The notes beneath the pieces are model-generated. The model ran no database searches. It was not told the origin of the DNA and saw only the letters and a program-made list of their open reading frames with translations. This document shows positions 8,867 through 54,729 of a DNA stretch of 64,000 nt, in pieces. The DNA comes from Janthinobacterium lividum (GTDB lineage Bacteria > Pseudomonadota > Gammaproteobacteria > Burkholderiales > Burkholderiaceae_D): contig NZ_CP139976.1 in the NCBI RefSeq assembly GCF_034424625.1, positions 5,146,001 through 5,210,000 of the forward strand, written 5' to 3'. Position numbers and translations under genes: made by a program. Every line of letters starts with the position of its first letter. Position 1 is the stretch's first letter.

Positions 8867-10132
8867 TTGACCACCATCCAAATCATCAGCGCCATCGTCT
8901 TCGGGCTTGCGCTCATCCACACCTTTGCCGCCAAGTCGTTTGAAACCTTGTCGCGGCGCCACCCCCGCCATGCGGGCCTGCTGCACTTGCTGGGCGAAGT
9001 GGAAGTCGTGTTCGGCTTCTGGGCCTTCATCTTGATCATCATCATGGCCTTTGTCTCGGGCGGCGATGCTGCCATCGAGTATGCCGAGTCGCGCCATTAC
9101 ACGGAGCCGCTGTTCGTCTTTGTCGTCATGGTCGTGGCTGCCTCGCGCCCCGTGCTCGACGCCGTGCAGCGCCTGTTGAAAGGCGTGGCGCGCGTGATGC
9201 CGCTGCGCACGGAACTGGCCCTCGTCTGGCTGGGCCTGGCGCTTGTGCCCCTGACGGGTTCGTTGATCACGGAACCGGCCGCCATGACCCTGGCCGCGCT
9301 GATGCTGGCACCGCAAATCTTCCGCCCGGGCATCCCTGAATGGCTGAAATACGGCGCGCTGGGCGTGCTGTTCGTCAACGTTTCCATCGGCGGCACGCTC
9401 ACCTCGTACGCGGCGCCGCCCGTGCTGATGGTGGCCACCACGTGGAACTGGGATAGCGCCTACATGGCTAGCCATTTCGGCTGGAAGGCGGCCATCGCCG
9501 TCCTCGTCAACGCCACGGGCGTGAGCATTTTGCTGCGCAAATACCTGCACAGCAACACCTCCGACATCAAGCCGAAGGCCGGTGAAGTCGAAGCGCCAAA
9601 AGTGCCGCTGGCCGTCAGCCTGGTGCACATGATCGTGCTGGCCGGCGTCGTCGCCCTGGCGCACCATCCCGTGCTGTTCATCGGCCTGTTCCTGTTCTTC
9701 CTCGGCTTCGTGCAGGCGTATGAGCGCTATCAAAGCCCGCTGATCCTGAAAGAGGGTTTATTGGTCGGCTTCTTCCTCGGCGGCCTGGTGGTACTGGGCG
9801 GCATGCAGCAATGGTGGCTGCAGCCCATCGTTTCCAGCCTGAAACCGCTGGCCCTGTTCTTCGGCGCCCTGGGCTTGACAGCCATTACCGACAATGCGGC
9901 CCTCACTTACCTCGGTTCGCTGATCGTCGGCATGACGGACGAAGCGAAATACATGCTGATGGCCGGCGCCGTGGCCGGCGGCGGCCTGACCGTCATCGCC
10001 AATGCGCCGAACCCGGCCGGCGTGGCCCTGCTGCGCCGCGGCTTCAAGGATGAATCGATCGGCGCCGTCGGTTTGCTGGCCGGCGCCCTGCTGCCGACGG
10101 CCGTGGCGGGCCTGGCCTTCCTGGCCCTGTAA
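8867..10132 (+). CDS. Putative Na+/H+ antiporter family membrane protein
   Basis: Polytopic inner-membrane protein of 421 residues with about 11-12 hydrophobic segments. Sequences such as VVFGFWAFILIIIMAFVSGG, GSLITEPAAMTLAALMLAPQ and the glycine-rich GGLTVIANAPNPAG motif near the C-terminus match the putative Na+/H+ antiporter family (Pfam Na_H_antiport_3). The ALTYLGS/TDNAAL segment carries conserved polar residues within the membrane, as expected for ion translocation. I chose TTG at 8867 as start because AAGGAA sits 7 bp before it and no ATG is available near; the frame is open upstream through the SOS region but has no ribosome site there. Confidence 0.8.
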   Translation: MTTIQIISAIVFGLALIHTFAAKSFETLSRRHPRHAGLLHLLGEVEVVFGFWAFILIIIMAFVSGGDAAIEYAESRHYTEPLFVFVVMVVAASRPVLDAVQRLLKGVARVMPLRTELALVWLGLALVPLTGSLITEPAAMTLAALMLAPQIFRPGIPEWLKYGALGVLFVNVSIGGTLTSYAAPPVLMVATTWNWDSAYMASHFGWKAAIAVLVNATGVSILLRKYLHSNTSDIKPKAGEVEAPKVPLAVSLVHMIVLAGVVALAHHPVLFIGLFLFFLGFVQAYERYQSPLILKEGLLVGFFLGGLVVLGGMQQWWLQPIVSSLKPLALFFGALGLTAITDNAALTYLGSLIVGMTDEAKYMLMAGAVAGGGLTVIANAPNPAGVALLRRGFKDESIGAVGLLAGALLPTAVAGLAFLAL

Positions 10133-52190: not shown

Positions 52191-53663
52191 ATGGCACTTA
52201 CCGATTTTGACCTGGTCCTGTTTGGCGGCAGCGGCGATTTAGCAATGCGCAAATTGTTGCCTGCAATGTATGCGCGCGACGTCGCGAACGATTTGCCGCC
52301 GACGGCGCGCATCATCTGCGTGGGCCGCCAGGACAGCGGCCAGGATGCCTTCCTGAAAATGGTGGAAAGCAACTCGCGTCCCCACATCAAGGCCAGCACC
52401 CTGAATGCCGCCACCTGGAGCAAATTCTGCGCGCGCATCGTGTATGTGTCGCTCAACGCCAGCGATGCGGCCACGTATGCACCGCTGGTCGAAGCGCTGC
52501 GCGGCGATGCCGACCTGACGCGCGTGTATTACCTGGCGACGCCGCCGCATCTGTTCGCCCTCATCTGCGACAACCTGGAAGACAACGGCCTGGTGACGCC
52601 GAACTCGCGCGTGGTGCTGGAAAAGCCGCTGGGCCGCGACCTGGCCAGCGCCAAGCAGATCAATGCCGAAGTGGGCAAGGTTTTCCAGGAATCGCAGATC
52701 TACCGTATCGACCATTACCTGGGCAAGGAAACCGTGCAGAACTTGCTGGCCCTGCGCTTCGGCAATATCCTGTTCGAACCGCTGTGGCGCCGCGAATGGA
52801 TTTCCGACGTGCAGATCACCATCGCCGAGAAACTGGGCGTGGGCAACCGCATGGGTTACTACGACACGTCGGGCGCGCTGCGCGACATGCTGCAAAACCA
52901 CTTGCTGCAACTGCTGTGCATCGTCGCCATGGAACCGCCGACCTCGATCGCGCCGGACGCCGTGCGCGATGAAAAGCTGCAAGTGCTGCGCTCGCTGAAA
53001 AAATTCACGCCCACCACCCTGGCGCAAAACATCGTGCGCGGCCAGTACCGCGCCGGCCACGTCGATGGCGCCACCGTGCCGAGCTACCGCGACGAGCCGG
53101 ATGCGCCGGAACATTCGCGCACCGAAACCTTCGTGGCGCTGAAGGCGGAAATCGACACCTGGCGCTGGGCCGGCGTGCCGTTCTACCTGCGCACGGGCAA
53201 GCGCATGGCCGACAGTCTGGCCGAGATCGTCGTGCGCTTCAAGCAGATTCCGCACTCGATCTTCAACCAGCCGACGTCCAGCTTCCAGCCGAACTGCCTG
53301 GTGATCCGTTTGCAGCCGGACGAAGGCTTGCGCATGAACCTGATGGCGAAAACCCCGGGCGACGGCATGCGCTTGAAACCGGCGGAACTGGAACTCGATT
53401 TCCGCGAATCGTTCAAGACCCCGCGCATGGACGCCTACGAGCGTTTGCTGCTCGACGTCCTGCGCGGCCAGCTGACCCTGTTCATGCGCGGCGACGAACT
53501 GGAAGCGGCCTGGGAATGGGTCGAGCCGATTCTCGACAACTGGGAACAGAACGACAGCGCGCCGATTCCGTACACGGCCGGCACCTGGGGCCCTGCGGCC
53601 GCCAGCGCCCTGATCGGCCGCGATGGCTTGCAGTGGCGTGAAGAAGCGCTTCCTGAAGACTAG
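52191..53663 (+). CDS. zwf: Glucose-6-phosphate 1-dehydrogenase
   Basis: Oxidises glucose-6-phosphate to 6-phosphogluconolactone with NAD(P)+; 490 residues. DLVLFGGSGDLAMRKLLPAMY is the Rossmann fingerprint (GxxGDLA), RIDHYLGKETVQNL is the signature with catalytic His, and EKPLGRDLASA is the EKPxG motif. ATG at 52191 chosen; an in-frame codon at 52173 lacks a ribosome site. The last codons (PED stop) form the start of a 100-bp tandem repeat that fills the gap to hexR. Two HexR-like boxes flank the promoter. Confidence 0.96.
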   Translation: MALTDFDLVLFGGSGDLAMRKLLPAMYARDVANDLPPTARIICVGRQDSGQDAFLKMVESNSRPHIKASTLNAATWSKFCARIVYVSLNASDAATYAPLVEALRGDADLTRVYYLATPPHLFALICDNLEDNGLVTPNSRVVLEKPLGRDLASAKQINAEVGKVFQESQIYRIDHYLGKETVQNLLALRFGNILFEPLWRREWISDVQITIAEKLGVGNRMGYYDTSGALRDMLQNHLLQLLCIVAMEPPTSIAPDAVRDEKLQVLRSLKKFTPTTLAQNIVRGQYRAGHVDGATVPSYRDEPDAPEHSRTETFVALKAEIDTWRWAGVPFYLRTGKRMADSLAEIVVRFKQIPHSIFNQPTSSFQPNCLVIRLQPDEGLRMNLMAKTPGDGMRLKPAELELDFRESFKTPRMDAYERLLLDVLRGQLTLFMRGDELEAAWEWVEPILDNWEQNDSAPIPYTAGTWGPAAASALIGRDGLQWREEALPED

Positions 53664-53751
53664 TTTGGAAGCGCAAGGAGTCTGGCCTTGCAAGGCCAGA
53701 CCGTTACGCAGGCGTGGAGCGGTGCTCCACGAAACCCCTGCTTCACCCCTG
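53652..53751 (+). ncRNA. Structured 100-bp repeat in zwf 3' UTR, unit 1 (candidate sRNA)
   Basis: Starts CCTGAAGACTAG, i.e. the last codons of zwf, and contains hairpin A (53680-53701: 9-bp stem, loop TGCA), spacer CGTTACGCA, hairpin B (53713-53731: CGTGGAGC-GGT-GCTCCACG) and an unpaired C-rich tail with CCCCTG twice. No T-run ends it, so it would be a processed product of the zwf-hexR transcript or act within it. Assignment as RNA rests on covariation with unit 2, not on a known family. Confidence 0.65.
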
Positions 53752-53851
53752 CCTGAAGACTAGTTTGGCAGCGCAAGGAGCCTGCCCATACATGGGCAGG
53801 CCGTTACGCAGACGCGGAGTGGTGCTCTGCGAAACCCCTGCTTCACCGCTT
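53752..53851 (+). ncRNA. Structured 100-bp repeat in zwf-hexR spacer, unit 2 (candidate sRNA)
   Basis: Exact 100-bp period to unit 1 with 15 differences. Hairpin A2 is 53780-53801 (stem GCCTGCCCA / TGGGCAGGC, loop TACA) and hairpin B2 is 53813-53831 (CGCGGAGT-GGT-GCTCTGCG). Eight of the differences form four compensatory base-pair changes and two others leave G-U pairs, so both folds are kept. A degenerate third unit start (CCCGAAAAC) follows at 53852 just before hexR. Confidence 0.65.
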
Positions 53852-53874
53852 CCCGAAAACAGAAGACAAATTTA

Positions 53875-54729
53875 ATGCTGCTTGACTCCATCCGCACACA
53901 GCTCGATTCGCTCTCCAAGTCGGAGAAGAAGGTCGCGCTAGCCGTGCTTGACCAGCCTAACCAGACGGTTAGCCAGAACATCACGGCGCTGGCGAAAAGC
54001 GCGCAGGTATCGGAACCGACCGTGGTGCGCTTTTGCCGCACCCTGGGTTATGACGGCTGGCATGAATTCAAGCTGAAGCTGGCGCAGGGCCTGGCCCTGG
54101 CCATGCCGGGCGCAAACGAGCAGCCGGCGCAGGACGACCTGGCGGCCGACCTGGTAAATAAAATCTGCAGCCGTTCGATCAACACCCTGCTCGACCTGCG
54201 CAACAACCTGAACCCGGAAGCGATCCAGCGCGCGCTCGACATCCTGTCGCGCGCCAGCAAGATCGAATTCTATGGCCAGGGCACGTCGGGCATCGTGGCG
54301 GCCGACGCGCAGCACAAGTTCTTCCGCTCGGGCGTGCCGACGGTGGCCTACAGCGACCCGAACATCCACAGTATCGCGGCGGCCCTGCTGCGCGGCGGCG
54401 ACTGCCTGGTGGCCATCTCGCAGCGCGGCAACAGCCCCGCCCTGGTCCGCTCCGTGAAACTGGCGCGCCGCGGCGGCGCCGACGTCGTCGTGCTGGCCCC
54501 ATCGGGCACGCCGCTGGCCGACCTGGCGACCGTGCTGATCCCGATCGACCTGGTCTTCAACACCGACCCCTACACCCCGATTTCCGCCCGCCTGGCCTAC
54601 CTGGTCGTGATCGACGTGCTGGCCGTGGGCCTGGCCCTGCAACGGGGTCCGGAGTTCCGCAAGAAGATGCAGAATGCGCAGAAGGCGCTGCAGGAATTCG
54701 ACATGCAGTTCGATTCCTTCATCGGCTGA
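53875..54729 (+). CDS. hexR: HexR, RpiR-family transcriptional regulator of sugar metabolism
   Basis: Regulator of 284 residues. The N-terminal RpiR helix-turn-helix (LSKSEKKVALAVLDQPNQTVSQNITALAKSAQVSEPTVVRFCRTLGYDGWHEFKLKLA) binds DNA; the C-terminal SIS domain (KIEFYGQGTSGIVAADAQHKFFRSGVP, AISQRGNSPALVRSVK) binds a phosphosugar, KDPG in characterised HexR. HexR represses zwf, edd-eda and related genes; boxes for it are seen at zwf, edd and pgi here. Location after zwf makes it autoregulated. The message leader contains the structured repeats. Confidence 0.94.
   Translation: MLLDSIRTQLDSLSKSEKKVALAVLDQPNQTVSQNITALAKSAQVSEPTVVRFCRTLGYDGWHEFKLKLAQGLALAMPGANEQPAQDDLAADLVNKICSRSINTLLDLRNNLNPEAIQRALDILSRASKIEFYGQGTSGIVAADAQHKFFRSGVPTVAYSDPNIHSIAAALLRGGDCLVAISQRGNSPALVRSVKLARRGGADVVVLAPSGTPLADLATVLIPIDLVFNTDPYTPISARLAYLVVIDVLAVGLALQRGPEFRKKMQNAQKALQEFDMQFDSFIG

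Follow-up and report, generated by a model that had tools for sequence, protein, structure and literature searches.

Integrative elements that restore the 3′ ends of tRNAs or other genes carry a gene end with them; they keep the gene whole and displace its native end. The two arms of a REPIN are inverted copies of one sequence, and the core boxes of integron attC sites read RYYYAAC/GTTRRRY. IS608, as far as the accessible text of three papers describes it, inserts 3′ of a target tetranucleotide, and guides lying 5′ of each of its hairpins pick the cleavage sites (PMC5934647, PMC6006769, PMC8266576). Our literature search, which was limited and does not establish absence from print, returned no paper on REP elements in Herminiimonas or Oxalobacteraceae. 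To our knowledge, as far as that search goes, the replacement of a gene end by an element of the kind considered here is undescribed.

We analyzed a 64,000-nt stretch of the Janthinobacterium lividum genome (NZ_CP139976.1, positions 5,146,001 to 5,210,000 of the forward strand; hereafter the window), in which two tandem repeats lie between zwf and a hexR-like gene. With a probability of roughly 0.6, these are two tandem copies of a protein-free, non-autonomous mobile element of about 100 nt that replaces gene ends. Each unit would be ordered as T′ (the 3′ end of the target gene with its stop), a left guide, hairpin A, a right guide, hairpin B, and the tail CACC. The 3′ part of the unit, 74 nt long at this locus, is called core E below.

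Results

Two tandem units between zwf and a hexR-like gene

The putative target gene, zwf, occupies 52191..53663 on the + strand (TIGR00871, 593 bits), where 53663 is the end of the ORF and 52191 a putative 5′ bound. The next gene, 53875..54729 on the same strand, encodes a hexR-like regulator of the RpiR family; its best match is NF008451 HexR at 261.8 bits, below the cut-off of 296 for that model. A first-pass annotation, made from the sequence of the window, had described two units in an exact 100-bp period in the gap between these genes, and the period was recovered as a direct repeat (53649-53748 / 53749-53848) with 85% identity and 15 differences. The repeat itself stood, while the junction analysis shifted the bounds of the units to 53648-53747 and 53748-53847 and added an extra hairpin, H0, to their layout.

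All features of the units lie on the + strand. The proposed insertion point, GAAGAAGC|GCTTCC, falls between 53647 and 53648, and the zwf frame reads ALP.. from there and from every CACC| junction. Unit 1 (53648..53747, 100 nt) comprises the T′ copy of the zwf end, the guide, hairpins A and B, and the tail CACC, and it would supply the zwf coding end now in use, ALPED*, which ends at 53663. Hairpin H0 pairs GCGCTTCC (53646-53653) with GGAAGCGC (53667-53674), so that it spans the insertion point and holds the zwf stop codon (53661-53663) in its loop. Core E of this unit (53674..53747, 74 nt) scored 104.3 bits with R1, a covariance model built from the three cores of this genome, this copy among them. 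It contains hairpin A (53680..53701, the palindrome GTCTGGCCTTGCAAGGCCAGAC), a putative right guide (53703..53704, G53703 and T53704) in which the column of T53704 covaries with that of A53745, hairpin B (53708..53741, with the foot GCAGG/CCTGC and a 3′ bulge AAACC), and the right end TTCACC (53742..53747), which was placed by the conserved tail and the junction analysis.

Unit 2 (53748..53847, 100 nt) repeats this layout with a T′ that reads ALPED* and is now untranslated. Its core (53774..53847, 74 nt) scored 98.1 bits with R1, of whose input it too was part, and its hairpins lie at 53780-53801 (A) and 53808-53841 (B with its foot). Downstream, 53848..53870 reads ALPEN.. and would be the displaced and decayed native end of zwf. 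The repeated zwf end in unit 2 and the degenerate third start (53847-53860), both pointed out in the first-pass annotation, are thereby explained as the result of inserting units that carry gene ends and as the displaced native end, still in frame as ALPEN..., respectively. The two hairpins per unit and their compensatory stem changes were likewise seen again, by eye, in the sequence and in the aligned cores. Both 74-nt cores folded better than shuffled sequences (unit 1, z −5.3, 0/200 as good; unit 2, z −3.6, 1/200); for unit 2 the minimum-energy fold differs from the shared fold, which comes from the alignment.

Core E is dispersed in the genus and family

Searching the whole genome at the DNA level located a third copy directly after hprK, flanked by a perfect 26-bp direct repeat that holds the last hprK codons and the stop. 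The cores of the two zwf units and of the hprK copy are each 74 nt long and align without gaps. R1 added a fourth, divergent copy beside ssrA. At E ≤ 0.01, R1 found the core in 35 of 61 genomes, namely 34 of 37 in the genus (this genome included) and one of 24 others, the last a weak match. A second model built from 54 hits, R2, was run with 25 candidates scored per genome across 195 genomes of the family and detected E in 129 of them, from 32 of 44 genera; it also matched five of 276 genomes at the level of the class, again with this genome included and with 17 candidates scored per genome. At least 25 copies were present in nine genomes of the family-wide R2 search; when 150 candidates were scored per genome, eight genomes of eight genera held 25 to 55 copies. 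Genome G163 held 17.

A pattern scan of named genomes had E among the matches listed for Janthinobacterium, Massilia, Duganella, Pseudoduganella, Herminiimonas, Collimonas, Undibacterium, Herbaspirillum, Thauera, Aromatoleum, Methylophilus, and others. The plasmid collection contained no match to the units of the window; with another E copy as the query it gave two records, both from Cupriavidus metallidurans, and the same kind of query gave no match in the phage collection. In five related loci, a single Rfam match overlapped E, to che1 (RF02935), and it was weak, with 28.4 bits (E 0.99) where the gathering score is 54.1; in L040 it lay on the strand opposite to E. The element is not tied to zwf and hexR, the core being found also at hprK, proA, and rho, beside ssrA, within palindromes, and inside MITE-like elements.

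These other settings are diverse. The MITE-like elements that contain E differ in their outer inverted repeats (G009, G185, and G152/G164), and many of their copies have no clear left boundary. Eight of them in G009 (L040-L042, L046-L050) are 230-244 bp long and 91-99% alike, carry an identical E core, and have the ends TAAGYAAGT..ACTTACTTA. In G188, E stands at the tip of palindromes, a position judged by eye, and the same palindromes occur without E at six places. Among 121 copies sampled from the named genomes, 15 had a direct flank repeat of at least 14 (control, 2/400) and 28 an inverted flank repeat of at least 9 (control, 8/400).

Beside ssrA (tmRNA), E adjoins the 3′ end of the gene and faces it (L038 8764-8837; L045 6500-7200). 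In G013 (L045), it is part of tandem 225-bp units that include the last ssrA bases and the terminator, next to variable genes. An integron or cassette array near ssrA, which the spacing of the copies had brought into consideration, was set aside; the G013 units are tandem repeats that include the ssrA terminator. Genome G136 has five E copies at a spacing of 186 bp (L056 1656-2475) and one more 6.6 kb away (9029-9104), with flanks resembling the ssrA type.

Other repeats were encountered along the way. Palindromes resembling GGGGTCGGACCCT/AGGGTCCGACCCC occur in the zwf-hexR and hprK-rapZ gaps of other strains, and in G000 (L172 1193-1219) the palindrome GGGGTCGGACCCT/AGGGTCCGACCCC itself accompanies a Y1/RAYT gene with an internal stop. 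Four hprK-rapZ gaps (L107, L115, L125, L129) carry a second repeat family, GTAGGTCGGATTAGCG..CCGACCTAC, within which an E copy apparently lies in G010 and G019. At five loci (L061, L063, L222, L256, L282), E adjoins other recurring palindromes, CTTTCTTTGCTTACTTTCTTTGGCGAAGC.. and GCCCCCACGCTC..CCCCCGAGGGGGC. The hprK-rapZ gaps of G030 and G019 (L120, L126) have more than 1 kb of extra DNA after the hprK stop. HprK matches reached just residues 236-245 of 311 in three genomes (G245:C1:484478-485185, G008:C32, G034:C167); G245 is a single-contig genome, and its hprK is perhaps interrupted or frameshifted.

Units at four genes carry an in-frame gene end

At zwf, hprK, proA, and rho, a unit of ~95-124 nt sits inside the last codons, with E as its 3′ portion. 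Insertion follows GC| in zwf, mostly GGC| in hprK, GGGC| or GGCC| in proA, and TGC| in rho, and the in-frame peptides after the insertion point are ALPED*, QR[LQ]AM[ST][GS]D*, HGE[IV]RE*, and RRGG*. Arrays range from one to six cores and are laid out as n cores with n+1 gene ends, each CACC usually being followed by an identical or similar C-terminus. In 50/50 arrays, the first copy of the gene end read a peptide typical of the gene and stopped where expected; arrays of related strains are not independent in this count, and from it, as from the counts of last copies and of codon differences, two loci of one hprK site (L012, L123) were left out for their short flank. In 25 of the 50, the last copy retained this peptide together with its stop, and in 18 of those 25 its DNA differed.

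First and last copies could be aligned in 40 arrays, in which they differed by 75 synonymous and 25 nonsynonymous codon changes. The 37 distinct first/last pairs gave 72 and 21, or 62 and 21 with stop codons left out, where 22% of random single changes are expected to be synonymous. The last copy was shifted, decayed, or absent in the ten arrays outside this codon count; with those ten counted position by position, the figures were 82 synonymous and 93 nonsynonymous. The predominance of synonymous differences in the alignable arrays suggests that both ends diverged mostly while coding, and so that the unit brought in its own gene end, T′. A local duplication of the target would instead begin identical and then drift without coding constraint.

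E-free relatives define the junctions at hprK

We surveyed the genus with loci from 30 of the 40 genomes searched. The model found E in 20 of 30 hprK-rapZ gaps and in 11 of 30 zwf-hexR gaps, and several other zwf gaps retain, by eye, just an A-like hairpin. From each of 16 hprK arrays with enough flank, the DNA between the cut and the last CACC was removed computationally, and the joined sequence was compared with E-free relatives. Six arrays then fitted an E-free relative without gaps over 52-59 of the 60 bases past the junction (filled/E-free pairs G025/G007, 59; G002/G015, 58; G033/G015, 58; G149/G035, 57; G010/G036, 54; G004/G024, 52). The 12 hprK gaps taken as E-free include those of G029 and G019, in which the model finds E, and neither belongs to the six matching pairs. 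For the other ten arrays, which have no close E-free relative in this set, the best E-free match was 39/60 or fewer.

Insertion at these six sites left no target duplication, as is the case for IS200/IS605. A target-site duplication of ~25 bp had been considered in view of the 26-bp direct repeat at hprK; it was rejected because the differences between the ends are mostly synonymous and the six E-free relatives fit without a duplication.

Guide-like pairings flank the hairpins

Outside the helices, the top covarying pair of columns joins column 35, in CCG[T]T immediately 5′ to hairpin B, with column 76, in C[A]CC at the right end. It is T-A in 70 copies, C-G in 14, and G-C in 8, about 90% Watson-Crick. 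In a separate scan, C-G was present in G008, G136, G157, G163, and G188, which represent four genera; eight of nine G-C cases belonged to ssrA-type copies, where the pair lies within a longer stem, and the ninth was L057; 4 of 71 copies were mismatched. The pattern scan of named genomes fixed CCGTT and is uninformative on these columns. A pairing of right guide with right cleavage site, as in IS200/IS605, is thus suggested by covariation alone.

On the left, H0 joins the last codons, which hold its 5′ arm, to the bases immediately preceding the core, which hold its 3′ arm. A stem of at least 7 was found in 18 of 131 contexts, compared with 5 of 655 shuffles. In gene-end contexts, the best stem (at least 5) reached both sides of the insertion point in 33 of 56 cases, compared with 102 of 2800 shuffles, and did not lie across the cut in the other 23. 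The arms vary by gene and covary within a gene; at zwf they read GCGCTTCC/GGAAGCGC, GCCCTGC/GCAGGGC, or GCGCTCC/GGAGCGC. Where a unit lies downstream and so follows CACC, pairing across the cut is often missing, as is expected if such units were inserted earlier, at the gene itself. The bases before the cut were GGC, AGC, GCC, TGC, GAC, or ACC, with no fixed tetranucleotide of the IS200/IS605 kind, and their final C is partly set by the search expressions.

The stems show no wobble preference

Hairpins A and B were present in 102 distinct copies. Pairing held in 97.4% of 2234 pair cells, and changes on both sides of a pair numbered 547, compared with a mean of 146 in shuffles. These values confirm the selection for structure proposed earlier, and the covariance-model search suggested at that time did yield further post-zwf copies in relatives and more covariation. 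The proposal that RNA is what is selected fared differently. G-U and A-C were about equally frequent in the E stems (29 and 31 of 2234 cells), whereas 6S RNA of 27 genomes in this family had 229 G-U and 6 A-C in 1244 cells; this control used 27 of 30 loci, leaving out three incomplete ones, and an RNAalifold structure derived from the same sequences, which favors G-U. RNA on either strand would favor one of the two classes, and G-U is not above A-C, so selection looks to be at the level of DNA. The stems look to be maintained as DNA hairpins or by a process that preserves palindromes.

Discussion

Comparison among genomes shows precise boundaries in six hprK cases, a kept reading frame, new and displaced gene ends whose differences are mostly synonymous, no wobble preference, and dispersal. 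The element is real and dispersed, and it is very probably mobile. The mechanism we propose is the following. Insertion would be precise and inside the last codons of one specific gene, T′ would take over the end of the gene in frame, and the native end would be displaced downstream. Insertion recurring at one point would build the arrays, each with n+1 gene ends for its n cores. The unit would move as folded single-stranded DNA that is cut and joined in trans by an HUH/Y1 transposase of the TnpA or TnpAREP type. Of the two guides, the left one (the 3′ arm of H0) would pair across the cut in the target; the right one would pair with the last bases of the element.

The IS608-like layout of E is what suggests that a Y1 enzyme transposes it in trans as a single strand. 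No E lay within 1.5 kb of 30 Y1/HUH loci (32 Y1 matches in 12 genomes), and a lenient threshold gave one hit of 8.5 bits (E 4.3). With no E near these Y1 genes, the enzyme is one that we infer, and we regard E as akin to the IS200/IS605 and REP elements but not as a member, a linked transposase having been looked for and not found. The possibility that E is the REP of a RAYT was rejected on the same 30 Y1/RAYT loci. A weak bias toward the lagging-strand template (35/56 copies in G185 and 20/30 on G157 contig 2; combined p 0.013) derives from strand counts made by eye and from an origin and terminus placed by sampled GC skew, and gene-orientation bias could contribute to it; we do not count it in favor of the mechanism.

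The reading with which the locus entered this study, a structured 3′ UTR RNA that yields sibling sRNAs or controls hexR under RNA-level selection, would account for the strong structure and for the fact that E points the same way as the gene before it at zwf, hprK, proA, and rho. We now consider it improbable. The G-U preference that is clear in 6S RNA is missing here, no Rfam family reached its gathering score in the window, no promoter-like site and, on the + strand, no terminator-like site was found between 53400 and 54100, and the core recurs at unrelated genes, in palindromes, and in MITE-like repeats. On the G-U test and the Rfam result, sRNA or hexR control was set aside as the main reading; the units may still be transcribed, or may affect hexR as a by-product. 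If the DNA reading is right, it cautions against taking strong covariation near genes as a sign of RNA, and the count of G-U against A-C tells the two apart.

Two other explanations are each unlikely in our judgment, if somewhat less so than the RNA one. A tyrosine recombinase acting in trans could integrate small circles with a gene-end att site into gene 3′ ends, in the manner of tRNA-targeted integrative elements. Gene-end restoration, tandem accretion, and n+1 ends would all follow, and T of one hprK allele contains an inverted repeat, TCGCCA-TGAG-TGGCGA. By eye, however, this repeat is missing from the other hprK alleles; in G149 compared with G035, the new and displaced ends diverge soon past the cut, which leaves little shared overlap for a crossover, and hairpins A and B, the guide-like pairings, and insertion at palindrome tips stay unexplained. 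Alternatively, an old 3′ UTR could have spread without transposing, through ordinary homologous recombination and through duplication in tandem. This would fit the variation of arrays between one and six cores and the mosaic look of the Janthinobacterium hprK alleles, and exchange between strains could also import a differing gene end. It does not account for the same core and architecture at four unrelated genes or for eight dispersed copies with an identical core in G009, and simple tandem duplication does not give n+1 gene ends along with a preserved native junction. Insertion of a mobile unit that carries a gene end is the reading we prefer.

A broader proposal, which we put forward tentatively and rate at slightly less than even odds, is that E represents a naturally occurring family of single-strand mobile elements that are guided by DNA and replace gene ends, in which a guide across the cut of one conserved gene in each lineage, together with a synonymous gene end, makes insertion harmless and allows arrays to form. 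If this is true, the family is a natural counterpart of the extended-guide retargeting of IS608 engineered in vitro. Gene-less elements of ~100 nt would then use DNA-DNA pairing to target single sites in conserved genes (zwf, hprK, proA, rho) and would mend the damage with a built-in gene end. They would offer a natural model of guide-directed DNA insertion and account for a large class of the palindromic repeats found among Burkholderiales and their relatives.

Among known systems, the ends of IS200/IS605 elements (IS608, ISDra2) and their non-autonomous derivatives are alike in having two hairpins, one near each end, in guide bases 5′ of the hairpin foot that pair with the end to be cut, and in the absence of a target duplication. 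E differs in that it has no transposase gene, its left guide is longer and would pair across the cut, its unit carries the end of the target gene, and just C or GC before the cut is common to its sites rather than a fixed tetranucleotide. The REP, BIME, and REPIN sequences served by TnpAREP (RAYT) are similarly short intergenic palindromes that occur in many copies and in tandem clusters with flanking DNA; unlike them, E has a head (columns 4-7) that is mostly GGAG and not GTAG, and its hairpins A and B are dissimilar to each other. The CGTC-tagged REPs form hairpin pairs, lie within palindromes in some species, and have no linked transposase, as E does, whereas E lacks the CGTC tag and the AT-start stem, and copies of gene ends are not described in the accessible text of that report (Di Nocera 2013, PMC3733652). 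With the integrative elements of tRNA and other gene ends, finally, E shares a gene that is kept whole and a native end that is displaced, and it differs from them in a unit of about 100 nt that has no genes and in which no recombinase core was seen.
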